DNA of 64,000 bases from Strix aluco (Eukaryota; Chordata; Aves; Strigiformes; Strigidae), in assembly GCF_031877795.1 (NCBI RefSeq), contig NC_133971.1, forward strand, positions 9,091,973 through 9,155,972. The letters run 5' to 3'. The position numbers were made by a program, and so were the translations under genes. The notes below the pieces were generated by a model that was not told the origin of the DNA, searched no databases, and saw only the letters and a program-made list of their open reading frames with translations. Positions 1,839 through 64,000 of this stretch are shown here, in pieces. Numbering within the stretch: position 1 is the first letter of the stretch; each line of letters begins with the position of its first letter.

Positions 1839-2227
1839 GTTAAACTGTATCTGAAAGGGGCCAGACAGCTGCCACAGCTGGCAGAAAGCAAGCGGCAGGA
1901 GTGCATGCCAGGGCTGAGAGGTCCTGCCTCCGCTCCTGGCTTGCCCCTCCCCAGCATCTCTGATGACACTCTCTCCTTTAGGAAGGAGCACCTTCAGTTA
2001 AATTAAACTGTGTTTTTTAAGTAAGATTAAATTTAAGCTGCTTTAGCTCTGAATAATTCCAGATAGCATGTCTAGGTAGTTTTAATGTGGGTTTAAGAAT
2101 CTTCTTCAAAATCTAATCAGACTAGCGTTCGTGAGGTCCTTTGTAGCCAGCTCTCAGTTTGTGCAAAGTGCCTGCAAAGTTAATGCAAGACTTGTGTGGT
2201 GTTACACACAGAGTCATTTAAAAGAAA

Positions 2228-2395
2228 ATAAAACCAGAAAGGACCTCTGCAGGGTGTCTAGTCTAATTTTGTGCTCCAGTCAGGTCTGGCTTCAAAACTG
2301 TCTTGGATTTTGAAAATGCCCAGCCTGAGGGGAGGGATTACACATCATCTCAGTCAGTGCTCGACTGTTCCTGTGGTGAAAGGAAAGAGGCAACG
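2228..2395 (-). mobile_element. Decayed CR1-like LINE 3' fragment (reverse orientation)
   Basis: The stretch AGAAAGGACCTCTGCAGGG-TGTCTAGTCTAA, followed by TTGGATTTTGAAAATGCCCAG and a GTTCCTGTGGTGAAAGGAAAG-like end, follows the order of the reverse complement of the avian/reptilian CR1 3' region (GGAAGGGACCTC..ATCTAGTCCAA..GGTTTTGAATAT..). Similarity is partial with several gaps, so this is an old truncated insertion. The same fragment recurs at 25354-25521 and 48480-48647. It supports a sauropsid source. It lies about 500 bp upstream of the predicted promoter. Confidence 0.5.
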
Positions 2396-2805
2396 GATAA
2401 AAGCTGTGCTTTCGATGGCAAGAAGGACCTTTATTTCTGTTGCAAATGCAGGGATTTCGGAACAAGGGATCAATACCTAGCTCTAGGCTATGGACAAAAC
2501 TGTAGCTGGATCATCTTGAAATGTTGGTCAGGGCCTTGGTCCAGCTTCGACTTTCAGAAATGACGTGGTAAATTGAGACACGAGATTCTTGACCCTTCTT
2601 GGAGGCTTGATGGGGAGTTTGAGGGTGGCTAAAGTGTTTTTGGGTGAGCTAAAGCCAGTATCCTCTCTCTGTTCAGAGCCATTGCAATGGCGGGTGCCAC
2701 ACAGTGTACTCGTTAAGAGCAGTGACAGTTAGGCCAGTGTAAACGATCTCAGGTGGAGGGGAGGAGAGATGTGCCCACCTGAGAGCCGGGCGGCTGGTGG
2801 AAGGC

Positions 2806-2881
2806 CCCTGGGGCGGGGCCTACCTGACGTCACAGGGCCGGTGTAACTGCCCGAGTTGTCCTGGCAACAGTCATTACAACA
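2806..2881 (+). promoter_or_regulatory. Candidate promoter, copy 1: GC box, CRE and RFX X-box
   Basis: Directly upstream of the predicted start codon are three textbook elements within 60 bp: a GC box GGGGCGGGGC (2810-2819), a full palindromic CRE TGACGTCA (2825-2832) and an X-box GTTGTCCTGGCAAC (2855-2868). The X-box is an imperfect palindrome close to the RFX consensus. The block is CpG-richer than its surroundings and has no TATA box at the usual spacing. CREM/CREB and RFX2 sites are known to co-occur at promoters active in spermatids, and RFX sites at motile-cilia genes. Transcription start and tissue are inferred, not seen. Confidence 0.65.
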
Positions 2882-2934
2882 ATGAGCCACCAACGCTGCG
2901 GGCAGCCTGCCTCTCAAGCACACTACACGGACAG
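2882..2934 (+). CDS. ELL2: Novel candidate first coding exon (copy 1)
   Basis: The ATG at 2882 opens 17 codons plus two bases (AG) ending at the donor ACAG|GTAAAA. The next exon begins with T, which completes AGT (Ser) and restores the SSGASQL run found at this position in human ELL2. The peptide has no similarity to the canonical ELL2 N-terminus that I can see. If translation does not start here, the first in-frame ATG downstream is the Met in [10 protein letters not shown] (exon 2). Same exon at 26008-26060 and 49134-49186. Confidence 0.6.
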
Positions 2935-5900
2935 GTAAAACTGATACCATTTGGACATGCAGAGACAATTTGGAATAGATTTACGCCCTAGCTAGCTGTC
3001 AGGACTGGAAAAAAGATTTTTCTTCACCTGTTAAGACAGGTTTAAAAGTTCCTGATACAACCATGCTTCTAAACGTGAACTAGCGCTTGGGCTCAACCTT
3101 TTCCAATGTTTTTATAGTTCTGGAGCCTCTCAACTCAGTTGCCTGGGACTTATACAGAACAAAATTACAGTGTGTGCCACAAGTGATTCCTATCCGACGA
3201 CCAAAGCGTGCATGGCCCAGCCAGAAGAGGAGTTGCGCAATGGAAGTGCAAAGGTTATTAAACCTGATGGGCCATTTTTAGGTATGGCGGTGTTTCATTT
3301 TTTACTAGATGCCTGTATGTTTTTAAACTCAGTAATTCATTTTTTCAGGATTCTTGGGAAAGTCGGTGTGTTCAGAGATCTCTGATGTAGGTAGCTTGCT
3401 CTCATGTTACAGTCTGCCCGTGCTGCTTTCAGACATTGGCCCTTTTTTTCCCCCGAGAAAGCCTGCCAGTCGTTCCTCGTTCCCATATCGCTTGACTGGT
3501 TGAAATTTTGACCACTGAGGTGAGGGATTTTACCACCCCATGCCCTGAAATTCTCTGGTTCAGTACGTAACGTTTTGTTTTTGTGACAGCACTTTTGAGG
3601 ACCTAAATACTGTGCTAAGTCATTAGCCTGAATTTGTAATCTAAAAAAATTCACACTGAGGAAGTCTCATATACAAGTTCATAGGCTTTATAGGAAAAAC
3701 TTTGCTTTCCACACTTGCTAATGCTGATTAAATTTTATTTATGTCTTGGCCATCAGTAAGCAACTGCTACCACAAGACCATGGTTGGTTTTCAAAAAAAA
3801 AAAAAAAAAAGTTAAAGTAAGGCAATGCTGGCATGGGAACATGGATTTCATCATTTTCCACAAAACAGAAAGCATTTAGGTGGTATTGTTTGTTATTAAA
3901 CTGCTCTGAGTACCGTTTTCCTGAGGAGCCTGGAGCTGGCTGCAGAGAGGTGCAAGGTGAGCATCCCCTTTCTAGGCACTCAGTGGTACGGGCAGCGGCG
4001 GTCCTGCCCGCAGCAGCGAGCTGAACCAGGTACATCCATCTTCATTACGTAAAACAGGCTCTCACTTGGCTGCGGCCGCAGTCGTCCGCCAGCACGGACA
4101 TCCCTGACAGCGATGGTACAACGCTTGCTCTGCCTCAGCAGGGCGTTTGAAGCCAGCTTTGTCACAGCTTTTTGGAGATACAACACTAAGTGTGTGTGGT
4201 CTTGACACTAAGGCAGCTCAGCACGGGTTGATACAGGGACATGGAGTGGGGACTGCTTCCCCTGTATTGTCTAAACTGCTCTTTAACGGCAGCGTGAGAG
4301 GAGCCACTTTCATGGATTTCAAAACTTCTCCTTGGGGAAGTTCTATTTTACATGTGAATGATCTGCATGATTCCTGTTGGTGGTTTAAATAGATCTTAAG
4401 CGAATATTTAACATTAAATAAATGGGGTCTGAAGATTGACAGTAGGACAGTTAGGATATTTGGGGGCACTTTTGTTTCAGACTGGCGTTGAGGAGGCTCA
4501 GGTAGGACAGGTCTTGTTGCTGGTAGGTCACGGGGGTGACTCTGCAGCGTGCTTCATGCAGTACAAATCAGGAACTGCGGTTGTTAATCATGTTAATGCT
4601 TGGTTATGTTCTCCGTTATTCTTTTTAAGGGATTCAGAGACATGACTTCAGGAGGTGTTTTGTTTGAATGCTGGTTACACCATCAGCTGTGCCGGGGGTG
4701 TGTGTGTGTGTATCTACACAGAAATTAACTTGTCCCGATGTTTGTAATGCATTCAATTTAAAACTGCTAAGTTCACACTGTTCAAAAAATGGAACTGTGT
4801 GCATTTGCATGATTAGCTTTCTTCTTGAAAACCAGAAGGGCAAAGTCCAGGGAACATGCAGGGTGCCAAGGTTATAAAGGTTTGGCCTCCACTGCAAAAC
4901 GGAAACAAATTCCTGCTACTCCTGAGGACAAGCAGTACCTAAGCACAGCTCAGTCTCTGTGTGTCTGATGGAGAGAGCAAGCTCCAGATTTTCTCACCAA
5001 TACTCATTAAGTGTCCCTCATGTACCAAACGTGAGCTGTTGGTTTCAAAAAAATAGCTGCTTTGTGTCACATCCTCTGTTGGATTGCAAACAGGTTTTAC
5101 TACAATGATTTTCTGTAACATTCTGATACTTTTCTGGGTTTTTTTGTTGGGTTTTTTTTTTTTTTTTTTTTTTTCCCTGCCTGATAGCAGAGCAAGGAGC
5201 TCAGGTCTTTTTCTGGAAAGCTGAGATTCAGCTCGGGTAGTGTTGTTTTTAAATTCTGGATGCGTTGCTTGCGCACACTTGCATTGTTCCTCCAGTTGAG
5301 AAACACATCTTTTTATAGAGTTTGATCCAAAATGCTGTGCAGGCCATGTTTTAAAACTTCTCCGGCCTTGATCCCAAGAACTGTTAAATTTTGGGTGTAC
5401 TGTTGCTGACAAACCTGGGGTTATTTAACACGAGGGGAACGTTTCAGCTTAAAACGTGGTGTAAGTTATGGTAGCTCAAAAGTGATCAACACCAAGTGTT
5501 GGTAGTTTCTTTAAGCAGTGATGTGATTAATTGTGTAGACTTGTTCTCCCTAGGCATTTACGGGGGATCCTTTAGTTATATGGAAGACCTTTGCATCACA
5601 CTTGGGAGTACTCTCCTGAAAAAAATGCCCGATTTTGAGTATTCGGTGCTTGAGCTTATAAACTGGAAAAATAATAAAAGCACCATGTATATAAATAATC
5701 AGTAAAGCCTTCCTACCGGCATCACTCCCCAGTTGTTTTAATACTGAATATTTCTTTGTTAATGCCCAGCTCGATGCAGCTTTGCTACCTGTATTCTTAT
5801 AGATCTTGAAATGCTAACTTAAGTCATTTTTAGAGTTTATCTGGCTTGGTAAAGTCTTTAAAACAACTTCCTTGTCTTCTGCCAATCTCCCACATCATTC

Positions 5901-8900
5901 TCTTTTTTTTTTTTTTTTTTTCTTTTTACCCTTATTTCAGGAAGAAAAGCACAGGTCAGAAAAGCACCACAAAAAATTCCAGATCCTGTGCCTGTGAGGA
6001 AGAGATCAACGCCCATGAACCCTGCAAACATAATAGGGAGGACTTGCACACAGAATGTGGTTTGTCGGCGGCCGTACAGGGATAGGGTGATTCATTTGTT
6101 GGCACTGAAGAATTACAAGAAACCAGAGTTACTCACTCGCTTGCGGAAAGATGGTGTCTACCAAAAGGACAAGAATTGCCTTGGAATGATCCTTCATCAG
6201 GTGAGATCATAGAGTTTGTGCCAGAAATTTTTCCTTCCTGCTATTCTTTTCAAAATAATTTTGAGCTGTGTCACTTCAGTGTTTAAATCAGAAAATAGTA
6301 AACAACTTAATGCTTCTTGTTGAAGTTTTTCAATAAACTTCATGCAGATGCCCCAAACTGCAAGTCAGTGTGAGGAAAGGAAAGACAGATGAAAAAATTC
6401 TTGGCGAGTGGTTTTGTTTTGCTAGAATGCCAGGCAGTATTAACTATTTCTAGCTTTGTTTCTCCTAATGTCTTATTTTTTCCCTCTCTCTTTTACTTGG
6501 ACTGCTTAGTTGAGAGAAGTTGACTGTGCGTTCTCTCAATTGTGTGAAATAGTTTGTCATAGTACTTCATGGTTTTTGTGACGAGTTTATGTGGAGAGAA
6601 ATTTGGTAACTGCAATCGCATGGGTTAGTACTTCGTTTGAACGTGGCTGGTGGCCTGTAAGTGGTGCTTGACTTCCCTTGGGATCTGTCGGAATTGCAAC
6701 CAAGGGAAGGGTGTTCCAGCGAAATCGTAAATGCTAAAGGTGGTGGTCCGATTTTGAGCATATTATTTCTTTGCTATCATGTGGACTGTGTCTTTACCTT
6801 CCTTGAAACTTTTTTTTATTCAGTAGCTTTTCCAGTGCTCCTTTAAGTTCCACCTGTATTTCTTTATCACATCCCTCAAAATTATTGGTAAGTCTATAAT
6901 GTTGTAGAGGTGAAACTTTTAAGCTGCGTGTTCAAGAGCGTCACTTATTAATTTGCTACAAAAACAGTTCAGAAAAGGCTTCTTAAAGTACCGTAAGATG
7001 CAGTGGCTCCTCCCTTACTTTTCAAATACTCCCTGTACCCACCGACTGTGGCTGAATTAGGCACGTATTAATGGGTGAAGTAGGAATATTTCCTACTTGT
7101 CTAGGAAAAAAGTGTTTGGGAACCTCTTAAAGTGAGCAAAATTCAACATTTATACAGCTTTGGTTGATCCTACACTGAATTCTAAAACCTCATTCCTTGA
7201 ATATGTTAAGTGTTATTGTTTTGTTTCCCCAGTGCGATGGTAGTTGTTTTTTTTCCACCCCGAAGACAGACACAATTTAATGACAGCCATGTTCTTACAT
7301 ACAAATTGAAGTAGTCAATCTATATTTTAAGTTGGTTATAAAATTCTAAAAGCTCAGCTCCCTAGAGCGTGAAAGGTGCAAAAACTTCCTCTTGTCCCAT
7401 TATGCTTGGCAATGTTTAAGGAGACTTTCCTGGAGTCTGTTTCCTGTATGTGGTGTGAACCTCAAGGAACCAGTACCTCAAGGTACTGGTTTGCATCAGA
7501 AGTGGTCGTGTTAGCAACGCTACACCCTGAAAAGCCTTGCTCATGTTTTTCTTAGCTCTGTAATGAGGTTTTTTTTTTGTACAAATCTAAAATCAGCAGC
7601 CTGAACTTGCTAAGATCTGATATGCACAGATTTGCTTCTCTTAGAATACAGCTTTAGTTGTTTTTAACAAGTGAATTACTGTTTAAGGGTATCTTTGTTA
7701 CTTTTAATTGGTTTTTTAGATGGGGACAGACAGACGTGGACACAGGCATGAATTTGCAGTATTTGCCATGTTTTAGAGGAAAAAAAAATAGGCTGAGCTG
7801 AAAAGTGGTGGTGGTGTGTTGATGAGTAGTTATTCCACATTTTGTGTCAGGCAAAGAGAGATAGTTTTGGGGGTTTTCCCTGAAACTCTGAACAGGTGTC
7901 AGGTGATGGAGTCTAAACCAGCACTTTGGGTGTCAATGATCTCAAGGGCTTTTTAGCTCATTTTAACCTTTTGAGTATACTTTGCATTTTTCTTAAGGAA
8001 GCTATAAGCCCATTTTATTTTCAAAGGTATAGAGCGAGGCATGCACACAAGCCTCTCGTGACAATACTGAACCCTGCGTCTGCAGAAGGAAGCGCACATC
8101 TGGCCTGCACACCTCCCCTTAAACATTTCAGCACTAAACTATCGTTAGACATGAGTACAGTTACTTTTTTCCCAATTGGTAAAACTTTGATATGGCTTAA
8201 AACTAATGGGATAGATGAAGAATTCATCTTTGTACCAGAAGGACTTGTCTAGCGCTAGTTAGGTTATCAGGTACAACTGTTCAGTAGACAGATACAGTTT
8301 CTTGTGGCCCAGGCACTTGAGAAAGCAAAGCAGTTCTGTTTCTCAAGACAAATGACGACATAGTGCGTTCATTAATGTGATGATGGAAAACAGGCGTTGT
8401 TCCAAGCACAGTCTGTGCTCTGCCATTGCCGTATAGCTGTGTACAACCAAAGAACAGCAGGTGTCCTCCTGAAGTTGAACAAATCTGAATTTGTATGTGG
8501 AGATAGTGTTCTTCAGTTCTTAAAACCAAACAAAACAACAAAAAGCCCCAAACAAAAAAAGGCAAACAAAACCCCCCACAAAACAGGCCTCTCAGCATAT
8601 TTCATGCAGTGAATATTTAAAGTTTTGGCATAGTTTGCCTTGATTCCCAGTGCTGTATTACAGACCCCTGGTGCAGAGAGAGGTTTGCAGCAGTTTGGGA
8701 TTTTCTTACCTTCAAATTTCTACATCCCAAGTTGACCACATTTTTAAAAATTGGTGCTCGTTACATGAGAGCTACTTGGATCTTCACATCTAAAAAACCC
8801 GGAAAACTGGTGTGTGATTCTGTTTTCAACTTTTATTTTACTTTGCAGTACCAATCTTATTTCTGCAGTGTGCATTTAGGTATCATGAACATTTATTTTC

Positions 8901-11900
8901 TTAAATGTCTGCCTATAGGTAGCCAGCCTGAATACAAAGGATAATTCTTACAGTCTGAAGGATCATCTGTTTAAAGACATTCAAAAAGATTGGCCTGGAT
9001 ACAATGAAATCGATAAACAGTCATTGGAGTTAATACTTTCTAGGTAAGTTCAGTCTCTAGGGGAAGGAAAATTGCCATTTAAAAAACTTGTTCTGGGAAA
9101 TGAATGTCTGTCTTCCCTATAATGAAAGAGCTATGACATAGACATTTTTTGCCTTGTAACCTGAAATGTTGGGTCATGCTTACAGAAAATTAAATTCATC
9201 TGAGGATGCCCCCAGCACCAGTCATTCGGGATCTCCTGTAACTCCCAGTAAAGATGGCCCATCAAATGCTCAGGTATTTTGTACTTTTTTTATCATTATT
9301 TACAGTGTATTAAGATTTATCACACTTTACACTGATGTAAAAGTTGTGATGTGAAGCACTAATATTGTCTTAAACACATGAAAAACTGAAGCATTTCTCT
9401 TTGATTGGACGTTTCTTCCTTTTAAAGGCGGTTGCACTGTCAAGGACTGCAAAAAAACTTAGTCACGTAGCTTTAAGGGCTGCTACATTTAGTGTTCTGT
9501 ATTTCAGAATGTTTATTAAAATACTTAAGATAAGATGGGAAGCACAGAAAGCCTTTCACCACTGAGCTATTTACATTTACACAGAGGAGGGAGGGCACAC
9601 CTCTGTGTTTCCCTAACTTTCTTTCAGAGCACGAAATGGTGCAGGTCCCAGGGACCTCTTCCCACCTGCCTCCCTACCCACAGAACCCAGATTTATTCCA
9701 ACAGGGTGGCACAGAGCCGTGCCTGGGGCTCCCGGCCCAAGCTGCCGCTTGTACATCGACGTGAGCAGCGTGCGCTTGCTAGAGGAGAGGATGTGAACCA
9801 GCTGGAGAGCAGCTGGGACAACAACTGCAGCAAAACTGGGGGGTTTACCCGTTCTTATCGGCTTTGCACATCACACGCTCTGAGAAGCATGCCGCTGCGT
9901 GCTTCTCAGGGCCGCTTTAGGACATCGCGTGGCTGTGTGCCAGCAAAAGCTGACTCTTCACCTGGTGTGTCCGAACGGAAATCGGTGCCTAAACGGTACC
10001 AACCTGACCTCCTCGTTTTGGGGAAGCCTTTGCTAGAGCTGCTGAAGAGAGTGTCTTTCTCCCAAAGCCTTTTAGCTGTAGGTTTGAAGAACGACTTGTT
10101 AATCATAAAATTAGAAACCAAGGATGAAAGAAACCATGTATTTAGCTGCAGTACTTCCTCGTTTGACAGCTAGTTTTGGAGAAGAAAGATGTGTTTTCAA
10201 CAATTGCCAGTTCAGAACTGTTCCTTTTCCAGAACGGGAGCAAAACTTAGTTCTGCTGGTTTTTACGGGCTTTTTTCTTTATTATCACAGAAAAGGGTCT
10301 TGGATTCCTCTTTCATCGGTCCTCTGAACAAAAAGAAGAGGATCTCTCGCCTGGGCAGTGGAATCCCGTCCCCGCTCAGAGAGCGCTTGTCTGCCTTCAG
10401 GGAGAAAGCTGCTGCCGCCCCTCCGCCGTCTCCCCGCCCCACGACCACCTCCATTCCCGCTCCTCACCCGCTGCCAGGGGCGCGCCTTCACGCTTCCAAC
10501 CTGCCAAAACCTGCCAGCTCCACCTCCCCCAGCACCCCTGAGGGGCAGGGGACACAAAACCTGCCCATGGACAGCTTCAGTCCTAATAGCACTAAGGCCT
10601 GTGAGGACCAGCAACAAAAATACACCTCTTGGAGTTCTTTGGGGATCCCAGAGCCTGCCGGGGTGCAGGTGAAGCCTCCTAAGTCCACAGGCAAGAAGCG
10701 TAAGGAGAAGCATGAAGGCAAGATGCAGCACACTGTGAGTGTGAGCATGGAGGAGAAAAACCTCAGAAAAGAAGAAACTGCCGAGCTGAGTACATCCTCC
10801 TGTTTGGATTCGGGTGAAGGTATTAATAGGCTGCTTTTCCTAACTCCTGTATGGGTAACCGTGGTGCAAAGAGACCTGTAAAACGAGGGACTGGAAACAC
10901 AAATGGTCTATTTTTTCACTTGGCTTTGTCATTATCCCTACTTTATGGTCATGAAGAATCCATATTGGTTTTCCGCTGTTGTATTACCTTGTAAATGTTA
11001 GTTCAAACAGAACAACATCAAAAAGCAGAAGCTGTTCTGCTGGAAGCTTATCTAGAATTTGGTTCATTTTTAAGAATTCTCCTGGACATACTACACAGTG
11101 CCCACGTGGCTTGGGATTTCTTTGCAAATATTTGTGCTTTCAGATATCTATGAATTTATATACAGGTGAGGGTCTTTCTGCAGATGCCAGTAACGAAATT
11201 CTGAACAGCTAGGGAAGCAAAAATCTGCACTGCATTTCAAGTTGGTGCTTACACTGAGCCATGTCAACAAACACACCTGAATTTTTGGAAATGAAGCGCT
11301 CGCAGTGAAACTGTTCACCTAAGTTGTATTGTACATACCGCGACCATTAATATTGCTGTTTGCATTTCTCTCAAATGTTGCTCCCATTTTTACACCACTT
11401 TTTCTACTGCTGTACTGCGTAATAATTTTAATACTAAAAGTAAAAGAATAGAGTAGAACATCACATGATAGTTCTTTTTTCCCCATGACCTAAAGCTCGG
11501 AGAGCTTAGAGATTGCAAGAACAGTTGAGCTTTAGCAGAAATACTGTGTTTAAGCAGTGGCAGTGGAAGCAAACAAAGAATATATAGGACTGTGTGTTTT
11601 TTAACTGCAAGACCCCAGATGAAAAGCAGAGAGAGATTACCAAGATCTTGAGTGTTCCTCCGTGTTCCAGCTAACTTTTCCTTATGGCAGCTATTTTTCT
11701 TATTTATCAAAAAGTCGGGAGGCTCCTGAAATATTCCTTTAAAAAGAGGGACTAGAGATTAAGTGTACCGTGCTCTCATAATGCCGTTTAAAAGAGCAAA
11801 AGAGCAATTTACAAGTGCAAATAACTTTCAAAGCCAGTTTTGCCACGTTAATGAGGAGCAAGTCTTTGTTGCAGGTCATTGAAGCCTGAATGCCGGGAAG

Positions 11901-14900
11901 CTATATACAATGCTCCTGACTTTCCTGCTTAGAGTGCTGAAATTAAATCTGACCTTGGATATCTGTAATTGGCAGGGAAGGAGGGATAAAAACATGGCAT
12001 GAAAAGAACTTCAGCTTTCTGCTCTATTTCTTGCTGGAACCTGGACGTTGAGATACATCTATATCTACATAGATACAGATACATCTCAAGCTGTTGTCTT
12101 TTGTGCAGCCACATCTGTTGCTGCATAATTTGAACGGCTGTGCAGACGCCACATCGTGTCTTCAAATAAGAAAAGCTGACCTTGGGTTAATACTGCGGTA
12201 GCGCAGAACCTGTAGAATAAAGTAGCCGTGCCCTCTTTCTAAAGCCCGGTACTGCCTACTATGGAGAAGGTCATGTGAGCCCTATTATTAACTTACAGAG
12301 CTTATTCCAAGTAATTTACTGTGAGAATAAAACTCTAAAGGATGTTTTCAAGCCCATTAAGCTGGTATTGTTTGGCTATATTAAAAATCTGTTTACCGCA
12401 AGTGTCAAAATTCTGCTTTTCTGTAGGAGTTGAAGAAACTTGCACTGCCTCCACAGGTTCTCCTTCAGCAAGCCAACCACCAGACTACTTCACGTGAGTA
12501 AAATAACAATTAACTTTCTTGCCACTCATTGAAGCAGATGGAAAATCACCTATAAAAACTCTCGTTTAGCTACAAAATTGAGAATTGACCAAAATGTAGT
12601 TTTAGAATAATGACAAGTTCCTTCAAGTCACCCAGCTGCCTCATTCAACTACCTGCAAGTTTTACACTCTGAGGGTGTCCCTTAATTATTGCGGTGCGAA
12701 AAGAAGCCATAAAAAGTATTTTTAATACCCTTTAGAAGAAGACGTAAACCATTTAATTTCCTTCTTCTTCAAGAACACCATAAGAAAGGAACATGAACCT
12801 GCGCTGTTTTCTTTTTAGAGGCAAGGCAAAACAGGAGGAAAGCTGAATGCTGGAATCCATAAATTTGAACACCTTTCCTGCACTTTCACTGCTTAGTGCA
12901 TTCTAAGGTGGAAAGTGGGGAGGGAAGGTAGCAGACTTTAAAGTCCAGAGTTACAAAGCCTATATGTGAGCTAACGGGAGTTAACCGTCAAAGTTATTTC
13001 TAAAGCTTTGATGTAAAATGGTCACTGGCTAACTTGAAGCTGCAGCAAAATATCCAATTTCACCGCAGAAATGCAGACCAAAGAGCTAGAGAAAACAGGA
13101 GAACCTCAGTTCAGATTTTAACTTTTACCTGCTTAATTTTGACTACAAAGCAAGATAAAAAGACATTAAACTTGCATGTGAAAGGTAACATACCTACAGT
13201 GACTGCCATGTTGCAGTCTGTAAAACTACAGAAGGGCTTCCTGGTGAGTTTACTTTTGGCTCCTGAACAAGTTGTCAAACATCAGATTGACATTTCCAAA
13301 AAGCTGAAATTTACCTCCTCTATAAAGAAGCTTTTCATCCGTGACAAGTGTTAAAGAACTTGCTTTAAAATGAAATACCTCTAATACCAGAATCATTTGG
13401 TTGCCTAAATAGTTTTTGACAGTATCAAAACTTTCCTAGGAGGAGGATTTGTCTTTACCGTTGCAAAACAGGGAAATAGCTTCTGCAAATGCCCAGTGTC
13501 TGGGCTTTTCCCCCACTGTTTTACTGGTGGCCTTTTTTTAAAAATGCGAAAGTTGAAGGAGGCCGCAGCGGAATAATTGTGGAATAACGTGGTCAGCGCC
13601 ACCTGAATTTCTAATAAAATGGGCTTTTTGGGGGGAGGATGGGCACAGTGGGGAGCAGTCTAAAGCTCTTTCCTCGGTTGGAAGGATGAGTTTGAGAAGG
13701 TTTTGAGGGGCCTTCGGTGCTCAGAGTTGGAACGAGCACCCCGACAGGTAAAGCCAGGACGAGCCCGACACTTCCTAGCAGCGCAATTGCCCAGCGTCAG
13801 CCGCAGCAGCGGCGCTGAGCCCATGGTCGTGTCTGCGGTGCAGGAGAGAGGGAGAAGTGTGTTAAAACGCTGCGAATTGCCAAGTTCAGCAGCTTCTGTC
13901 AGAGGAGTAACATCAGCAAGGGAGGTCAGGCCTCCGCCTAGCGCTTGAACTTCGGAGCATCTTCTGCCTGTGCTGAAGCAGACGGCATGGCAGCGCTGTG
14001 CGTCTCACTTACTCTGTTAAGTGATGCTCCACGGAAAGACTGAAATAAGTCTGGCCCTGCAGGGAAGCAGTTTAGTGCTTCACGTGTTAGGCTGAGAACT
14101 CAAACCGATGTTTAATTCTCGGCCTCTGCTGGGTGCCAATGAAGCGATCCAGCTCCCCGCTGTCTGCTTCCCAGTCAGCTGAGGGCAGGGATACTGAGGA
14201 GAAAGGTTATTTGATGTAATCTAGTATTAAAGTTGGATGCCAATAGCCACTGTTAAAAGTTTAAAAAAAAAGCCAACACAAACCCACCACCACCAAAAGA
14301 CCAACCAACCAACCAACCAACCAAAACCCAAAAACCCCAAAGAAACCTTCATGCAAGGTTTCATGAAGTTGGTTTAGTTCTGACTGGGATTAAAAACCTT
14401 AACAAAGACTTCCCTGTGAAAGGAGCAACATCTGGAGCAATCTCACAGATAATCTACTGGCCACAGTGTCCTGGAAAAAAATTAGGGTGTGCTGTTTCAG
14501 ACTGATCACTACAGAAAGATTGAAACCTGGGAGCACCTACAGTTTGATCCAGTTTAAAGGACTTTGGTAGTTTATTTCAATTTCTCTTCCTGTCTAAGTG
14601 CTCTATAATTCATGAGTATAATCACAGCGTTAGCATAAAGATACTTTCCATCTTAGTCTAAAGAAAGATGCTGAGAGTAAAGGAACTCAAGCTTTTTAGG
14701 CAAAGCTTAAGGAAGAGCTAGACAAACCAAACAGATTCACCTTTCTCCCCACTTCTATCCCCATTTCTTGCCTCTGCACACGCCTACATTGCGAGTGCTC
14801 TGCTGGGCTCTACTCCTGTGCTCAACTCCTGCTGTGGGATGTAACTGTGCACAAGCTTCACAGGTCCTTCCCAAAATGCTGGGGGGCACCTGTAGTTTTC

Positions 14901-22225: not shown

Positions 22226-22273
22226 ACTTATGGGGACTTATGGGCAACTTATGGGCACTTACGCACTTATGGG
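22226..22273 (+). repeat. Short tandem ACTTATGGG minisatellite
   Basis: Four perfect ACTTATGGG copies (22226, 22236, 22247, 22265) plus one decayed copy (22257), spaced 8-11 bp. Recurs at 45352-45399. Confidence 0.85.
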
Positions 22274-22954: not shown

Positions 22955-23041
22955 CTGAGGTGTTTCAGCAATTATCGGTATCCATTCCTCTCTTTAGAGC
23001 TTCCCTGCAAGCAATCAGAACTAGATGCGATCTTTGCATGA

Positions 23042-23070
23042 AATGAATGAATGAATGAATGAATGAATGA
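23042..23070 (+). repeat. (AATG)n microsatellite
   Basis: About seven AATG units in the spacer. The same length occurs in unit 2 (46168-46196). Confidence 0.9.
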
Positions 23071-49057: not shown

Positions 49058-49133
49058 CCCTGGGGCGGGGCCTACCTGACGTCACAGGGCCGGTGTAACT
49101 GCCCGAGTTGTCCTGGCAACAGTCATTACAACA
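49058..49133 (+). promoter_or_regulatory. Candidate promoter, copy 3: GC box, CRE and RFX X-box
   Basis: Identical block: GC box 49062-49071, CRE 49077-49084, X-box 49107-49120. None of the observed inter-copy substitutions falls in these three motifs. Confidence 0.65.
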
Positions 49134-52100: not shown

Positions 52101-55100
52101 GTAAAGTCTTTAAAACAACTTCCTTGTCTTCTGCCAATCTCCCACATCATTCTCTTTTTTTTTTTTTTTTTTTCTTTTTACCCTTATTTCAGGAAGAAAA
52201 GCACAGGTCAGAAAAGCACCACAAAAAATTCCAGATCCTGTGCCTGTGAGGAAGAGATCAACGCCCATGAACCCTGCAAACATAATAGGGAGGACTTGCA
52301 CACAGAATGTGGTTTGTCGGCGGCCGTACAGGGATAGGGTGATTCATTTGTTGGCACTGAAGAATTACAAGAAACCAGAGTTACTCACTCGCTTGCGGAA
52401 AGATGGTGTCTACCAAAAGGACAAGAATTGCCTTGGAATGATCCTTCATCAGGTGAGATCATAGAGTTTGTGCCAGAAATTTTTCCTTCCTGCTATTCTT
52501 TTCAAAATAATTTTGAGCTGTGTCACTTCAGTGTTTAAATCAGAAAATAGTAAACAACTTAATGCTTCTTGTTGAAGTTTTTCAATAAACTTCATGCAGA
52601 TGCCCCAAACTGCAAGTCAGTGTGAGGAAAGGAAAGACAGATGAAAAAATTCTTGGCGAGTGGTTTTGTTTTGCTAGAATGCCAGGCAGTATTAACTATT
52701 TCTAGCTTTGTTTCTCCTAATGTCTTATTTTTTCCCTCTCTCTTTTACTTGGACTGCTTAGTTGAGAGAAGTTGACTGTGCGTTCTCTCAATTGTGTGAA
52801 ATAGTTTGTCATAGTACTTCATGGTTTTTGTGACGAGTTTATGTGGAGAGAAATTTGGTAACTGCAATCGCATGGGTTAGTACTTCGTTTGAACGTGGCT
52901 GGTGGCCTGTAAGTGGTGCTTGACTTCCCTTGGGATCTGTCGGAATTGCAACCAAGGGAAGGGTGTTCCAGCGAAATCGTAAATGCTAAAGGTGGTGGTC
53001 CGATTTTGAGCATATTATTTCTTTGCTATCATGTGGACTGTGTCTTTACCTTCCTTGAAACTTTTTTTTATTCAGTAGCTTTTCCAGTGCTCCTTTAAGT
53101 TCCACCTGTATTTCTTTATCACATCCCTCAAAATTATTGGTAAGTCTATAATGTTGTAGAGGTGAAACTTTTAAGCTGCGTGTTCAAGAGCGTCACTTAT
53201 TAATTTGCTACAAAAACAGTTCAGAAAAGGCTTCTTAAAGTACCGTAAGATGCAGTGGCTCCTCCCTTACTTTTCAAATACTCCCTGTACCCACCGACTG
53301 TGGCTGAATTAGGCACGTATTAATGGGTGAAGTAGGAATATTTCCTACTTGTCTAGGAAAAAAGTGTTTGGGAACCTCTTAAAGTGAGCAAAATTCAACA
53401 TTTATACAGCTTTGGTTGATCCTACACTGAATTCTAAAACCTCATTCCTTGAATATGTTAAGTGTTATTGTTTTGTTTCCCCAGTGCGATGGTAGTTGTT
53501 TTTTTTCCACCCCGAAGACAGACACAATTTAATGACAGCCATGTTCTTACATACAAATTGAAGTAGTCAATCTATATTTTAAGTTGGTTATAAAATTCTA
53601 AAAGCTCAGCTCCCTAGAGCGTGAAAGGTGCAAAAACTTCCTCTTGTCCCATTATGCTTGGCAATGTTTAAGGAGACTTTCCTGGAGTCTGTTTCCTGTA
53701 TGTGGTGTGAACCTCAAGGAACCAGTACCTCAAGGTACTGGTTTGCATCAGAAGTGGTCGTGTTAGCAACGCTACACCCTGAAAAGCCTTGCTCATGTTT
53801 TTCTTAGCTCTGTAATGAGGTTTTTTTTTTGTACAAATCTAAAATCAGCAGCCTGAACTTGCTAAGATCTGATATGCACAGATTTGCTTCTCTTAGAATA
53901 CAGCTTTAGTTGTTTTTAACAAGTGAATTACTGTTTAAGGGTATCTTTGTTACTTTTAATTGGTTTTTTAGATGGGGACAGACAGACGTGGACACAGGCA
54001 TGAATTTGCAGTATTTGCCATGTTTTAGAGGAAAAAAAAATAGGCTGAGCTGAAAAGTGGTGGTGGTGTGTTGATGAGTAGTTATTCCACATTTTGTGTC
54101 AGGCAAAGAGAGATAGTTTTGGGGGTTTTCCCTGAAACTCTGAACAGGTGTCAGGTGATGGAGTCTAAACCAGCACTTTGGGTGTCAATGATCTCAAGGG
54201 CTTTTTAGCTCATTTTAACCTTTTGAGTATACTTTGCATTTTTCTTAAGGAAGCTATAAGCCCATTTTATTTTCAAAGGTATAGAGCGAGGCATGCACAC
54301 AAGCCTCTCGTGACAATACTGAACCCTGCGTCTGCAGAAGGAAGCGCACATCTGGCCTGCACACCTCCCCTTAAACATTTCAGCACTAAACTATCGTTAG
54401 ACATGAGTACAGTTACTTTTTTCCCAATTGGTAAAACTTTGATATGGCTTAAAACTAATGGGATAGATGAAGAATTCATCTTTGTACCAGAAGGACTTGT
54501 CTAGCGCTAGTTAGGTTATCAGGTACAACTGTTCAGTAGACAGATACAGTTTCTTGTGGCCCAGGCACTTGAGAAAGCAAAGCAGTTCTGTTTCTCAAGA
54601 CAAATGACGACATAGTGCGTTCATTAATGTGATGATGGAAAACAGGCGTTGTTCCAAGCACAGTCTGTGCTCTGCCATTGCCGTATAGCTGTGTACAACC
54701 AAAGAACAGCAGGTGTCCTCCTGAAGTTGAACAAATCTGAATTTGTATGTGGAGATAGTGTTCTTCAGTTCTTAAAACCAAACAAAACAACAAAAAGCCC
54801 CAAACAAAAAAAGGCAAACAAAACCCCCCACAAAACAGGCCTCTCAGCATATTTCATGCAGTGAATATTTAAAGTTTTGGCATAGTTTGCCTTGATTCCC
54901 AGTGCTGTATTACAGACCCCTGGTGCAGAGAGAGGTTTGCAGCAGTTTGGGATTTTCTTACCTTCAAATTTCTACATCCCAAGTTGACCACATTTTTAAA
55001 AATTGGTGCTCGTTACATGAGAGCTACTTGGATCTTCACATCTAAAAAACCCGGAAAACTGGTGTGTGATTCTGTTTTCAACTTTTATTTTACTTTGCAG

Positions 55101-58100
55101 TACCAATCTTATTTCTGCAGTGTGCATTTAGGTATCATGAACATTTATTTTCTTAAATGTCTGCCTATAGGTAGCCAGCCTGAATACAAAGGATAATTCT
55201 TACAGTCTGAAGGATCATCTGTTTAAAGACATTCAAAAAGATTGGCCTGGATACAATGAAATCGATAAACAGTCATTGGAGTTAATACTTTCTAGGTAAG
55301 TTCAGTCTCTAGGGGAAGGAAAATTGCCATTTAAAAAACTTGTTCTGGGAAATGAATGTCTGTCTTCCCTATAATGAAAGAGCTATGACATAGACATTTT
55401 TTGCCTTGTAACCTGAAATGTTGGGTCATGCTTACAGAAAATTAAATTCATCTGAGGATGCCCCCAGCACCAGTCATTCGGGATCTCCTGTAACTCCCAG
55501 TAAAGATGGCCCATCAAATGCTCAGGTATTTTGTACTTTTTTTATCATTATTTACAGTGTATTAAGATTTATCACACTTTACACTGATGTAAAAGTTGTG
55601 ATGTGAAGCACTAATATTGTCTTAAACACATGAAAAACTGAAGCATTTCTCTTTGATTGGACGTTTCTTCCTTTTAAAGGCGGTTGCACTGTCAAGGACT
55701 GCAAAAAAACTTAGTCACGTAGCTTTAAGGGCTGCTACATTTAGTGTTCTGTATTTCAGAATGTTTATTAAAATACTTAAGATAAGATGGGAAGCACAGA
55801 AAGCCTTTCACCACTGAGCTATTTACATTTACACAGAGGAGGGAGGGCACACCTCTGTGTTTCCCTAACTTTCTTTCAGAGCACGAAATGGTGCAGGTCC
55901 CAGGGACCTCTTCCCACCTGCCTCCCTACCCACAGAACCCAGATTTATTCCAACAGGGTGGCACAGAGCCGTGCCTGGGGCTCCCGGCCCAAGCTGCCGC
56001 TTGTACATCGACGTGAGCAGCGTGCGCTTGCTAGAGGAGAGGATGTGAACCAGCTGGAGAGCAGCTGGGACAACAACTGCAGCAAAACTGGGGGGTTTAC
56101 CCGTTCTTATCGGCTTTGCACATCACACGCTCTGAGAAGCATGCCGCTGCGTGCTTCTCAGGGCCGCTTTAGGACATCGCGTGGCTGTGTGCCAGCAAAA
56201 GCTGACTCTTCACCTGGTGTGTCCGAACGGAAATCGGTGCCTAAACGGTACCAACCTGACCTCCTCGTTTTGGGGAAGCCTTTGCTAGAGCTGCTGAAGA
56301 GAGTGTCTTTCTCCCAAAGCCTTTTAGCTGTAGGTTTGAAGAACGACTTGTTAATCATAAAATTAGAAACCAAGGATGAAAGAAACCATGTATTTAGCTG
56401 CAGTACTTCCTCGTTTGACAGCTAGTTTTGGAGAAGAAAGATGTGTTTTCAACAATTGCCAGTTCAGAACTGTTCCTTTTCCAGAACGGGAGCAAAACTT
56501 AGTTCTGCTGGTTTTTACGGGCTTTTTTCTTTATTATCACAGAAAAGGGTCTTGGATTCCTCTTTCATCGGTCCTCTGAACAAAAAGAAGAGGATCTCTC
56601 GCCTGGGCAGTGGAATCCCGTCCCCGCTCAGAGAGCGCTTGTCTGCCTTCAGGGAGAAAGCTGCTGCCGCCCCTCCGCCGTCTCCCCGCCCCACGACCAC
56701 CTCCATTCCCGCTCCTCACCCGCTGCCAGGGGCGCGCCTTCACGCTTCCAACCTGCCAAAACCTGCCAGCTCCACCTCCCCCAGCACCCCTGAGGGGCAG
56801 GGGACACAAAACCTGCCCATGGACAGCTTCAGTCCTAATAGCACTAAGGCCTGTGAGGACCAGCAACAAAAATACACCTCTTGGAGTTCTTTGGGGATCC
56901 CAGAGCCTGCCGGGGTGCAGGTGAAGCCTCCTAAGTCCACAGGCAAGAAGCGTAAGGAGAAGCATGAAGGCAAGATGCAGCACACTGTGAGTGTGAGCAT
57001 GGAGGAGAAAAACCTCAGAAAAGAAGAAACTGCCGAGCTGAGTACATCCTCCTGTTTGGATTCGGGTGAAGGTATTAATAGGCTGCTTTTCCTAACTCCT
57101 GTATGGGTAACCGTGGTGCAAAGAGACCTGTAAAACGAGGGACTGGAAACACAAATGGTCTATTTTTTCACTTGGCTTTGTCATTATCCCTACTTTATGG
57201 TCATGAAGAATCCATATTGGTTTTCCGCTGTTGTATTACCTTGTAAATGTTAGTTCAAACAGAACAACATCAAAAAGCAGAAGCTGTTCTGCTGGAAGCT
57301 TATCTAGAATTTGGTTCATTTTTAAGAATTCTCCTGGACATACTACACAGTGCCCACGTGGCTTGGGATTTCTTTGCAAATATTTGTGCTTTCAGATATC
57401 TATGAATTTATATACAGGTGAGGGTCTTTCTGCAGATGCCAGTAACGAAATTCTGAACAGCTAGGGAAGCAAAAATCTGCACTGCATTTCAAGTTGGTGC
57501 TTACACTGAGCCATGTCAACAAACACACCTGAATTTTTGGAAATGAAGCGCTCGCAGTGAAACTGTTCACCTAAGTTGTATTGTACATACCGCGACCATT
57601 AATATTGCTGTTTGCATTTCTCTCAAATGTTGCTCCCATTTTTACACCACTTTTTCTACTGCTGTACTGCGTAATAATTTTAATACTAAAAGTAAAAGAA
57701 TAGAGTAGAACATCACATGATAGTTCTTTTTTCCCCATGACCTAAAGCTCGGAGAGCTTAGAGATTGCAAGAACAGTTGAGCTTTAGCAGAAATACTGTG
57801 TTTAAGCAGTGGCAGTGGAAGCAAACAAAGAATATATAGGACTGTGTGTTTTTTAACTGCAAGACCCCAGATGAAAAGCAGAGAGAGATTACCAAGATCT
57901 TGAGTGTTCCTCCGTGTTCCAGCTAACTTTTCCTTATGGCAGCTATTTTTCTTATTTATCAAAAAGTCGGGAGGCTCCTGAAATATTCCTTTAAAAAGAG
58001 GGACTAGAGATTAAGTGTACCGTGCTCTCATAATGCCGTTTAAAAGAGCAAAAGAGCAATTTACAAGTGCAAATAACTTTCAAAGCCAGTTTTGCCACGT

Positions 58101-61100
58101 TAATGAGGAGCAAGTCTTTGTTGCAGGTCATTGAAGCCTGAATGCCGGGAAGCTATATACAATGCTCCTGACTTTCCTGCTTAGAGTGCTGAAATTAAAT
58201 CTGACCTTGGATATCTGTAATTGGCAGGGAAGGAGGGATAAAAACATGGCATGAAAAGAACTTCAGCTTTCTGCTCTATTTCTTGCTGGAACCTGGACGT
58301 TGAGATACATCTATATCTACATAGATACAGATACATCTCAAGCTGTTGTCTTTTGTGCAGCCACATCTGTTGCTGCATAATTTGAACGGCTGTGCAGACG
58401 CCACATCGTGTCTTCAAATAAGAAAAGCTGACCTTGGGTTAATACTGCGGTAGCGCAGAACCTGTAGAATAAAGTAGCCGTGCCCTCTTTCTAAAGCCCG
58501 GTACTGCCTACTATGGAGAAGGTCATGTGAGCCCTATTATTAACTTACAGAGCTTATTCCAAGTAATTTACTGTGAGAATAAAACTCTAAAGGATGTTTT
58601 CAAGCCCATTAAGCTGGTATTGTTTGGCTATATTAAAAATCTGTTTACCGCAAGTGTCAAAATTCTGCTTTTCTGTAGGAGTTGAAGAAACTTGCACTGC
58701 CTCCACAGGTTCTCCTTCAGCAAGCCAACCACCAGACTACTTCACGTGAGTAAAATAACAATTAACTTTCTTGCCACTCATTGAAGCAGATGGAAAATCA
58801 CCTATAAAAACTCTCGTTTAGCTACAAAATTGAGAATTGACCAAAATGTAGTTTTAGAATAATGACAAGTTCCTTCAAGTCACCCAGCTGCCTCATTCAA
58901 CTACCTGCAAGTTTTACACTCTGAGGGTGTCCCTTAATTATTGCGGTGCGAAAAGAAGCCATAAAAAGTATTTTTAATACCCTTTAGAAGAAGACGTAAA
59001 CCATTTAATTTCCTTCTTCTTCAAGAACACCATAAGAAAGGAACATGAACCTGCGCTGTTTTCTTTTTAGAGGCAAGGCAAAACAGGAGGAAAGCTGAAT
59101 GCTGGAATCCATAAATTTGAACACCTTTCCTGCACTTTCACTGCTTAGTGCATTCTAAGGTGGAAAGTGGGGAGGGAAGGTAGCAGACTTTAAAGTCCAG
59201 AGTTACAAAGCCTATATGTGAGCTAACGGGAGTTAACCGTCAAAGTTATTTCTAAAGCTTTGATGTAAAATGGTCACTGGCTAACTTGAAGCTGCAGCAA
59301 AATATCCAATTTCACCGCAGAAATGCAGACCAAAGAGCTAGAGAAAACAGGAGAACCTCAGTTCAGATTTTAACTTTTACCTGCTTAATTTTGACTACAA
59401 AGCAAGATAAAAAGACATTAAACTTGCATGTGAAAGGTAACATACCTACAGTGACTGCCATGTTGCAGTCTGTAAAACTACAGAAGGGCTTCCTGGTGAG
59501 TTTACTTTTGGCTCCTGAACAAGTTGTCAAACATCAGATTGACATTTCCAAAAAGCTGAAATTTACCTCCTCTATAAAGAAGCTTTTCATCCGTGACAAG
59601 TGTTAAAGAACTTGCTTTAAAATGAAATACCTCTAATACCAGAATCATTTGGTTGCCTAAATAGTTTTTGACAGTATCAAAACTTTCCTAGGAGGAGGAT
59701 TTGTCTTTACCGTTGCAAAACAGGGAAATAGCTTCTGCAAATGCCCAGTGTCTGGGCTTTTCCCCCACTGTTTTACTGGTGGCCTTTTTTTAAAAATGCG
59801 AAAGTTGAAGGAGGCCGCAGCGGAATAATTGTGGAATAACGTGGTCAGCGCCACCTGAATTTCTAATAAAATGGGCTTTTTGGGGGGAGGATGGGCACAG
59901 TGGGGAGCAGTCTAAAGCTCTTTCCTCGGTTGGAAGGATGAGTTTGAGAAGGTTTTGAGGGGCCTTCGGTGCTCAGAGTTGGAACGAGCACCCCGACAGG
60001 TAAAGCCAGGACGAGCCCGACACTTCCTAGCAGCGCAATTGCCCAGCGTCAGCCGCAGCAGCGGCGCTGAGCCCATGGTCGTGTCTGCGGTGCAGGAGAG
60101 AGGGAGAAGTGTGTTAAAACGCTGCGAATTGCCAAGTTCAGCAGCTTCTGTCAGAGGAGTAACATCAGCAAGGGAGGTCAGGCCTCCGCCTAGCGCTTGA
60201 ACTTCGGAGCATCTTCTGCCTGTGCTGAAGCAGACGGCATGGCAGCGCTGTGCGTCTCACTTACTCTGTTAAGTGATGCTCCACGGAAAGACTGAAATAA
60301 GTCTGGCCCTGCAGGGAAGCAGTTTAGTGCTTCACGTGTTAGGCTGAGAACTCAAACCGATGTTTAATTCTCGGCCTCTGCTGGGTGCCAATGAAGCGAT
60401 CCAGCTCCCCGCTGTCTGCTTCCCAGTCAGCTGAGGGCAGGGATACTGAGGAGAAAGGTTATTTGATGTAATCTAGTATTAAAGTTGGATGCCAATAGCC
60501 ACTGTTAAAAGTTTAAAAAAAAAGCCAACACAAACCCACCACCACCAAAAGACCAACCAACCAACCAACCAACCAAAACCCAAAAACCCCAAAGAAACCT
60601 TCATGCAAGGTTTCATGAAGTTGGTTTAGTTCTGACTGGGATTAAAAACCTTAACAAAGACTTCCCTGTGAAAGGAGCAACATCTGGAGCAATCTCACAG
60701 ATAATCTACTGGCCACAGTGTCCTGGAAAAAAATTAGGGTGTGCTGTTTCAGACTGATCACTACAGAAAGATTGAAACCTGGGAGCACCTACAGTTTGAT
60801 CCAGTTTAAAGGACTTTGGTAGTTTATTTCAATTTCTCTTCCTGTCTAAGTGCTCTATAATTCATGAGTATAATCACAGCGTTAGCATAAAGATACTTTC
60901 CATCTTAGTCTAAAGAAAGATGCTGAGAGTAAAGGAACTCAAGCTTTTTAGGCAAAGCTTAAGGAAGAGCTAGACAAACCAAACAGATTCACCTTTCTCC
61001 CCACTTCTATCCCCATTTCTTGCCTCTGCACACGCCTACATTGCGAGTGCTCTGCTGGGCTCTACTCCTGTGCTCAACTCCTGCTGTGGGATGTAACTGT

Positions 61101-63521
61101 GCACAAGCTTCACAGGTCCTTCCCAAAATGCTGGGGGGCACCTGTAGTTTTCTTTTAAAAACCATCCAGCACTCTAACCAGGTGCCTCTGGCCTGGGATA
61201 CATCACTGAGCAAAGTTGTCATCTGCATTGGTGCAGACTTTCAAGTTGTTAAAGTTTTACTGCTCGTTAAAATTAATCTAAAGGTGGTTTGAAGGATTTG
61301 TCCCCGTGTGGAGGTGCCTGTGTCACCCAAAGAGAACAGGGTCTTTAGGCTAGGAGGACCAGAAGCACTGGTGTGACAGCGGTGGGAAGTCCTATCTATT
61401 ACTCGCATTCCCGCTTCATCTTGGATTTGCATAATGACCTTGTTAAATCTGCTCCTGGTGATTTGAGGGAGAGGGGAATGAAGAAAGTTTCAACCGCTTC
61501 AGTGGCTTTAAGCATTTAAGGGTTTTTCCCTCCTTAGGAGGTGATGTGATGGGGTTTCTTTTTGTTTCAGACCTCTCTGCAGTTTGTTTGTGTTGCTGTA
61601 TTGCAAGTGCCTTAGTTGAGTGGACAGCAATGGAACTGGTGTTCCCTAAAATAATAAAATGTTATCATTAACTATGCTTGGCTGTTAGGGTTTTGGCTAC
61701 ATTGGTGCCTATCTGACTGCATCCAACACTGTAAATGTAGTCCCTTCCAAAAATGTAATGGAAATGAATTTTCAAAAGTAAATATAATCTAATTAACTTC
61801 TCCCTTCATAGAAAGAGATTATAATCTAGCAGTTTCTCTTCTCTCTCTGAAGCTGATGCATTTATTGATCCTTCTATATTTGAATGATTGCTTATGTTTT
61901 CTAAGTATGCTACGCCTTCCTTGTGCACCTTGTGAATGACACTCTAAGAAGTAAAATATTAGCAAACAGCTCTCACAGAAATATGGTAGATTTCTGTCAT
62001 TACCTAAACGCTTTCCCTTGGAGCACGTGTGCTTACTTGTAGAAGCAGTCAGTCACGTAGTTAACTGACTTAAAGCTTGGGTGTCTGTGCTTGATATTCA
62101 TTATGTCCTTGGTGTGAAACTGCATGTGTGCTTATTTTTGCACCAGAAAATACACAGCCATAGTCTCATACGAGCAACGCCAGCGTTACAAGAATGACTT
62201 CTGTGCAGAGTATGATGAATACAGGAACTTGTATGCTCAGATGGAGAGTATCAGCCAGCAATTCAGGAGTCTTGATGCACAACGGCACATGCTTTCTCCA
62301 GGTTCCAAAGAATATAAGGTAAAGAAGGATAAAAGTGTCAGGATTGTGTTTCATCTCCCTCTTATCCCTTCCAAAAGCCCACATTTTCAGCACAGGCAGA
62401 CCTTTCAGTATATATATCTGTTAAATTATATGGGCGTGGTTTTAAAACGAACATCTGAGACTGAGTAACCGGTCGCAGGGCTGGAACTGCCAGACTGGCT
62501 CATGCTTCGCTGTTGAGGCGTGGGGGTGCTGCGGTGCTGTTACACAGACCGGTGAGAGGATTGGTAGCGGGTGGAAACCAGCAGCTGTAATGCCAAAGCT
62601 TTCCTGACCCTCTGTTTCCCATGGTTTTATACACTTAACTAAACCTGCAGCCACAGGTTACCCATCTTCCTGATGCTAGCTATGATTCTAGCAGAGAAGG
62701 GTGTTCAAAAACTGATACTCTGGCCTTCCACTCAGACTTCTCTGATTTGGACATACAAATTCCTCATGTTCAGTACCAGAATTCTTTAATTCTGTGTGCA
62801 CGCTGAGGATTCTTGGCTGGCGTTTTTTTAGTTTTTGGTCAGATTGCAAGTGTATTTGTGAGCAGAAGGAGTATTTTAAAATCCCTGGTACTGCTCAACT
62901 AGACAAAGGGAAACCTTTTAGAATGGGCATACATCCTCAGACCCTGTGTGGGCTAGCCTGGATTTTTGAAGCTTGAAAAAACCCTGCAAAAAGTTGTTCA
63001 GCCCTCAAACTCCACCTGTCTGAGCTGTCTGCGAACAGACAGCAGCGTGAGCGACTTGTCAAAGGGAATCGTCAAACACATGCCCCTTCTGTTGCCTATT
63101 TACATGTTTAATTGCATATTTGGGGTGATGTGGGGGGATGGGAGGTTATTTTTGCATTTTCTGGTAGTAGTGAAATGTTCTTCATGTTGTCTTCATGTTT
63201 GTTTGTTTGTTTGTTTTTTCCTTGAAGATGCTTTGTGAGGAAGTCTTAGAAGAGTACCGAAAGTTGAAAGAGGTATGTGTAACACCAGATTTGTGGGAGG
63301 TAGTAATCACTGAGCCTGGCTCAAGGGTATTTTTAAGCAAAGGACATGAAATATTCAACTCTGCAGAAACGTTTTCATGCCATGATTTTCTTTTTATCTT
63401 ATCTTTACAGTCTAGCCCCAGCTACTTTGAAAAGAAGTGTAGATGCCAGTATCTCCACAGCAAGCTGTCCCACATTAAGAAACTAGTAGGGGAATTTGAC
63501 AAACAGCAACAAGAGTTCTAG
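49134..63521 (+). CDS. ELL2: ELL2-like RNA polymerase II elongation factor, copy 3 (ten exons)
   Basis: Spliced CDS: 49134-49186, 49370-49533, 52193-52452, 55171-55295, 55438-55525, 56543-57071, 58679-58745, 62147-62318, 63228-63272, 63411-63521. The coding region is complete within the window; only the end of its 3' UTR is cut off. The predicted 537-residue protein is identical to copy 2, including Thr in VCTTSDSY. All ten exons, donors and acceptors are as in copy 1. Confidence 0.9.
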
Positions 63522-64000
63522 CACTAGTCTCCTGCTTCGACCAGGACACGTGAATGGACAGAAGCTTATTTATTTAAAACTTAAGATTAGTTTCTCTAAG
63601 ATTCTAAAAGGTAGCATTGAACTTTTTTGTTACAGAAGTTTCCGTATTAGCAGAGTTAACTACTTTTATTGTTGTTGATGTTGCTTACATGTGTATTTAA
63701 AGCTGCTTTTTCTGGTCCCTTCTTTTCTTCAAGATTTTTGTGTGTCCATTGAATTAGTTTTAGCAGTAGATAACTGGGGAGCCAGTACCTTTACTATGAC
63801 GTTGTGCGCATATTAAGAAAAAGTTGTAGCAAACTGAAATGCTGATGGATAGATGTAAGGCTGTTTTCCGACCTTTCTTGTTAATGCAAACTCTTTGCCT
63901 TAAATGGTAGAAGGTTTAGAAATTAGCAGAAAACAAAAAAATCACATTGTTTTGGAGGGTTAAAGAGGCACGTAGATGTGCGGTATACAGGGCATTTTGT
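63522..64000 (+). other. ELL2: 3' UTR of ELL2 copy 3, partial
   Basis: Starts after TAG (63519-63521), holds the AU-rich nonamer at 63566-63574 and runs off the window. It carries the single copy-3-specific substitution (63982 G). Confidence 0.65.

Follow-up and report, generated by a model that had tools for sequence, protein, structure and literature searches.

A tandem array of N-terminally truncated ELL2-like genes on a probable chromosome Z of Strix aluco

A window of 64,000 nucleotides from Strix aluco (NC_133971.1, positions 9,091,973 to 9,155,972) had been described, in a preliminary description based on the letters alone, as three head-to-tail units that each carry a complete gene resembling the elongation factor gene ELL2. 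This raises the question of whether such an array exists, what its units encode and how they arose. We found that the tandem array is genuine, and that it consists not of complete-gene copies but of an N-terminally truncated ELL2 family. Coordinates are window positions, values below 1 or above 64000 lying in the flanks, which were read in 180 kb of flanking sequence; C-numbers are contigs of the searched assembly (1.41 Gb, 202 contigs), C41 being the contig with the array. Papers are given by PMC number.

By self-BLAST, window 1830-40874 matches 24955-64000 with 99.98% identity over 39,046 bp at an offset of 23,125/23,126 bp, and 1830-17748 matches 48081-64000 with 99.96% identity. The period of 23,126 bp proposed earlier is thereby confirmed, with the left edge at 1830 instead of 1839. 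The three repeats are also there, but the array runs on outside the window: it spans 1830-112531 (C41:9.09-9.20 Mb) and comprises four full units and an incomplete fifth, starting at 1830, 24955, 48081, 71207 and 94340, the fifth ending at unit position 19345. Units 1 and 2 are whole in the window and unit 3 is mostly so; the latter passes 64000, though its coding exons end inside the window with a stop codon that ends at 63521.

Units 1-3 are almost identical, and units 2 and 3 differ at only 1 site in 23 kb, which would suit an assembler that had repeated one true unit. However, there are 40 sites at which unit 5 is the only one to differ, and unit 4 has the unit-5 variants at 16 sites, all in 15438-18959, a mosaic that is a crossover or conversion tract. 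Units 1-4 also have in common a deletion of ~697 bp. We rejected the opposite reading, an insertion in unit 5, since the ancestral-site copy (see below) aligns through this stretch and the distance from exon 6 to exon 7 in the copy at 16.87 Mb is that of unit 5; units 1-4 therefore lost it. Moreover, the two outer flanks of the array are unlike each other. Given the mosaic, the deletion and the differing flanks, a plain assembly duplication is weakened to the point of being very improbable.

Each unit has 10 exons with GT/AG at each intron and matching phases, as had been described, and the coding sequence of 1614 nt (537 aa) is undisrupted in 5/5 units. The resemblance to ELL2 also holds: in the unit protein, the Pfam domain ELL (PF10390) scores above the cut-off (239.9 bits, E 5.1e-71, profile positions 94-282 of 282), Occludin_ELL (PF07303) lies at the C terminus (110.2 bits, E 9.9e-32, profile positions 1-101 of 101), and the best solved-structure match is human ELL2 (7okx_M, E 1.9e-177, residues 105-637 of a 640-residue chain). 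The alignment begins only at residue 105, human residues 1-104 (ELL2 exons 1-3) having no counterpart in the unit protein and the first 17 codons of the unit gene having none in ELL2. Hence we rejected a complete ELL2, as the preliminary description had it: exons 1-3 are missing, with a new first exon of 17 codons in their place, which makes each gene a 5'-truncated paralogue. N-terminal ELL2 queries in a contig search hit only ELL on C29 and exon 3 of the ancestral-site copy on C41, all other matches being weak (E >3). As far as can be read from the predicted protein, the winged-helix region, the linker and the occludin-homology domain are kept, and the greater part of the EAF dimerization domain would fall in the missing residues 1-104.

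The copy at C41:959-979 kb has ELL2 exon 3, and a GLRX-type match lies ~26 kb past its last exon. Since ELL2 stands beside GLRX in human, we read this copy as the ancestral ELL2 site. Its match to the array starts ~370 bp after exon 3 and ends at 19345, and the new first exon has its counterpart, with a 7-bp deletion, in the intron after ELL2 exon 3. The C29 gene was considered as parent and rejected, because it reads as ELL from its translated exons, judged against human ELL, and lies on a 6.4-Mb contig. Exon 3 of the ancestral site (C41:959122-959235) shows 47% identity to the human ELL2 query, the ELL exon 62%, and queries with ELL2 exons 1-2 (E 10) matched nothing except ELL; with a diverged exon 3 and exons 1-2 not recognised, the parent gene may be changing too. 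Near ancestral ELL2, two GLRX-type matches (C41:1002945 and 1016149) stand in opposite orientation 13 kb apart, a possible inverted duplication.

C41 (97 Mb) carries both DMRT1-family matches (2/2), and of four CHD1-type matches one is on C41 and one, near-equal in score (62.7 vs 63.3 bits), on C40. On the basis of these matches C41 is probably chromosome Z and C40 probably chromosome W, in agreement with the earlier guess of a sex-chromosome location (Z or W). The new promoter/exon stretch was matched by 8 of 8 candidates, every one of them on C41: the ancestral site, the five array units and two inverted loci at 16.85 Mb. Searches for the ELL and occludin domains gave at least 29 and at least 24 matches (each among 30 candidates), and those listed fall in ELL (C29), the ancestral-site copy, the five array copies and the two inverted copies (C41:16.84-16.87 Mb). 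Also among the matches listed are a last-exon ELL2 fragment at C41:8.71 Mb and occludin-type matches at C41:16.93 Mb and C29:1.2 Mb, which we presume to be OCLN and OCEL1. No ELL2-derived copy was found on C40 among the matches listed in the ELL-domain, occludin-domain and new-exon searches. In chicken, ELL2 and PCSK1 are found together on Z (PMC3394724).

The 16.87-Mb copy, read in pieces, has an intact frame of 547 aa; the second copy of the inverted pair is known only from exon matches. In exon 6, the array has 30 nt less (in frame) than the ancestral-site and 16.87-Mb copies. The pair is spaced by 20,357 bp, shorter than the array unit, which fits with the absence of a match to window 20000-21000 at the 16.85-Mb loci in a search with spacer sequence. 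In units 1-4, as in the two copies at 16.85 Mb, the ELL2 segment runs straight into the beginning of a dispersed repeat, so this junction is probably older than the split of the array and the inverted pair. In unit 5, the 8.71-Mb fragment and the ancestral site, matching stops at 19345. Noncoding divergence of the array is 2.05% from the 16.87-Mb copy and 6.05% from the ancestral site.

Inside the 57 bp upstream of the ATG, we observed a perfect cAMP response element (CRE), TGACGTCA, and an RFX-type X-box, GTTGTCCTGGCAAC. The CRE counts 3 in the window, that is one site in three units and 1 independent occurrence, against 0.32 expected; the X-box also counts 3 (1 independent) and, with 0 in 100 shuffles, exceeds chance expectation, although its pattern was picked after the site was seen. 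The 16.87-Mb copy has the CRE and an identical X-box; the ancestral-site copy has a one-base variant of the X-box and no CRE. In spermiogenesis, RFX2 acts via X-boxes near start sites and CREM via CREs (PMC4498915). Male-germline expression of the array genes is thus a reasonable prediction, no more.

The best explanation, which we hold to be somewhat probable, is that a Z-linked ELL2 segment reaching from inside intron 3 to beyond the stop codon was copied to another place on Z, fused to the dispersed repeat and then tandemly amplified with exchange between units. Sequence of intron 3 would have given the new promoter and first exon, so that each unit would encode its 537-aa protein without ELL2 residues 1-104. 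The gene would be transcribed in male germ cells, as the CRE and X-box predict, and its protein may be a variant of ELL2 uncoupled from EAF, either still entering the super elongation complex (SEC) or competing for it. ELL without its first 44 residues hardly self-associates any more and binds EAF1 much less, with SEC binding equal or better (PMC9638944); the dimerization domains of ELL2 and EAF1 dock on the lobe of RNA polymerase II (Pol II; PMC10716050), and the occludin-homology domain is the binding place of AFF4 (PMC5290273). A sub-case of this explanation, possible but doubtful, is that the truncated protein is a competitive inhibitor, holding AFF1/AFF4 without helping Pol II and lowering SEC activity in spermatids. 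The missing stretch does correspond to the part of ELL whose first 44 residues serve self-association and strong EAF1 binding, and the dimerization domains of ELL2-EAF1 sit on the Pol II lobe. However, drifted AFF4-facing residues could weaken such competition, and older work cited in PMC9638944 had assigned an inhibitory role to the domain formed by the same 44 residues, so their loss might instead activate.

Several observations weigh against the copied-segment explanation. By count, a single independent CRE falls short of significance, the gene sets of RFX2 and CREM are largely separate (PMC4498915), and the EAF and SEC deletion results stem from ELL rather than ELL2. Among 21 AFF4-contact residues of PMC5290273 placed by number and letter, the array keeps 12 and changes 9 (Phe547, Tyr596, Ile599 and Leu628 were dropped for a numbering misfit, and Phe548, added by ourselves to the check, was also left out). 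Three of the four polar residues jointly mutated in that study are changed (H559Y, H608F and N619S; K625 is kept). With 9/21 contacts changed, SEC binding by the array protein is plausible but not assured; since 8/21 are also changed in the ancestral-site copy, most of this drift appears older than the array. The coding sequence adds further adverse points, which at the same time favour a dead or dying amplicon, that is a segmental-duplication by-product on Z without protein function, whose frames are open only through youth. Exons changed as much as noncoding sequence (6.10% vs 6.05% from the ancestral site, 2.17% vs 2.05% from the 16.87-Mb copy), the changes between units 1 and 5 comprise 1 that is synonymous and 5 that are nonsynonymous, and the absence of a stop among the 31 counted changes between the array and the 16.87-Mb copy has a neutral chance of P 0.32. 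The near identity of units 1-3 also agrees with a young, inert amplicon.

Nevertheless, pairwise dN/dS, the ratio of nonsynonymous to synonymous change, is 0.34 for the array against the 16.87-Mb copy and 0.43 against the ancestral site. Site counts make the synonymous excess significant (P 0.003 and P 0.0003, respectively), but the significance weakens once a CpG-aware spectrum derived from introns is applied (P 0.03 and P 0.02; ratios 0.47 and 0.62). Frames are intact in 6/6 derived copies read (five units and the one at 16.87 Mb), and against the ancestral site the array has one indel, in frame, vs ~8 expected, and no stop (P 0.03, partly reflecting constraint on the ancestral-site gene). 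For these counts, we relied on the codon alignment of exons 2-10, which has one gap, and merged gaps in noncoding sequence alone; the gap counts of 14 and 10 obtained for exons are too high, owing to one 30-nt indel aligned in scattered form and to the 7-bp exon-1 indel at the ancestral site. A dead amplicon is therefore rather unlikely in our view. Coding constraint on the array genes nonetheless appears weak, because exons change as fast as noncoding sequence and the differences between units 1 and 5 are mainly nonsynonymous.

If the array genes are expressed, a core transcription-elongation gene would join the Z ampliconic families, and nature would provide an N-terminal deletion of ELL2 that may allow SEC binding to be told apart from EAF/Pol II docking. 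Expression would also open the question of whether sex-chromosome conflict in birds targets the general transcription machinery. Carried to its end, and here we are speculating on something that we think improbable, the lineage would have gained an elongation factor that is Z-linked, amplified in dosage and specific to spermatids, an ELL2 without its EAF/Pol II-docking front and with a promoter from its own intron. The number of copies on Z would then tune transcription after meiosis, and sexual conflict or Z drive might be at work.

Features of the array in the window are collected in Table 1. The first AATAAA past the stop codon is at 19380, within the spacer.

Table 1. Units, putative promoter sites, exons and noncoding parts of the ELL2-derived array (exons and noncoding parts for unit 1)
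Feature	Position	Strand	Remarks
Tandem unit 1	1830..24954	+	self-BLAST (99.98% over 39 kb), variant table
Tandem unit 2	24955..48080	+	self-comparison, exon reading
Tandem unit 3, cut by window end	48081..64000	+	coding exons complete; self-comparison, exon reading
Full CRE TGACGTCA	2825..2832	+	again at 25951 and 49077
RFX-type X-box GTTGTCCTGGCAAC	2855..2868	+	again at 25981 and 49107
Exon 1, new first coding exon	2882..2934	+	17 codons + two bases; counterpart lies in ELL2 intron 3
Exon 2 (ELL2 exon 4)	3118..3281	+	starts SSGASQL, human residue 105 on
Exon 3	5941..6200	+	winged-helix region begins here
Exon 4	8919..9043	+	
Exon 5	9186..9273	+	
Exon 6	10291..10819	+	linker
Exon 7	12427..12493	+	67 nt
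Exon 8	15895..16066	+	occludin homology domain
Exon 9	16976..17020	+	
Exon 10	17159..17269	+	stop TAG 17267-17269
3' untranslated region / ELL2-derived 3' sequence	17270..19345	+	ancestral-site match stops at 19345
Spacer	19346..24352	none	no ancestral-site match seen
Left part of ELL2-derived segment (intron 3)	24353..24954	+	matches ancestral-site copy

The spacer contains, at window 19351-22346, the ~3-kb dispersed repeat, whose copies elsewhere are ~90% identical; of the 11 listed copies outside the array, four have a HYDIN locus no more than 150 kb away, two each on C27 and C41. Adenylate-kinase-like exons of HYDIN also abut the array at window -141..71 on the minus strand. Such HYDIN exons gave 36 matches, each of two exon types being present at 18 loci; eight of these loci are on C41 and the other ten are spread over C6, C10, C16, C24, C27 and C37. 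A HYDIN-related expansion in songbirds has already been published (PMC4377847). On the other side, minus-strand open frames at window 119492-131994 look retroviral by eye, and a second tandem array (unit ~2,434 bp, mostly 99.5-99.7% identity) extends from window 141583 to past 174000 (C41:9.233 Mb on). Among the 40 of 125 candidates that were scored, copies of this satellite are also found at C41:8.746, 16.65 and 26.4 Mb, and within 200 kb of 3/4 ELL2-derived places on C41 (8.71, 9.1 and 16.85 Mb; not 0.96). The open reading frame of the satellite and two coiled-coil-like ones in the flank had no Pfam match at E 0.01.

The preliminary description had likened the array to ampliconic germline families of sex chromosomes. 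The location, the near-identical intact copies (5 in the array and the one at 16.87 Mb) and the exchange between copies seen in mosaic unit 4 agree with this, the germline part being a prediction, and the array is a new addition to the known class of sex-chromosome amplicons. In the open-licence literature, we found nothing on ELL2 as an ampliconic gene or sex-chromosome tandem duplicate, publication of the array being still possible, and no open-licence paper on bird ELL2 is, by title, about its amplification. The main texts of PMC4377847 and PMC10387091 do not mention ELL2.

Compared with human ELL2 (7okx_M), the array protein aligns at residues 105-637 and keeps the winged-helix and occludin-homology regions, but lacks residues 1-104, has a new 17-aa start and some changed AFF4-facing residues, and is multicopy. 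Mammals have a testis ELL paralogue, ELL3; the array gene would likewise be a germline variant of the ELL family, though ELL3 is a separate gene without an array and germline expression is only predicted here. The testis-expressed amplicons of chicken Z (PMC9974502) are multicopy Z genes too, but they involve another gene, whereas here the array is small and testis expression is predicted. Finally, the HINT1W array of chicken (PMC9974502), in which a 5,648-bp unit occurs 52 times, is also made of whole-gene tandem units on an avian sex chromosome; it differs in lying on W rather than Z, in its gene and in a unit ~4 times smaller than that of the ELL2-derived array.
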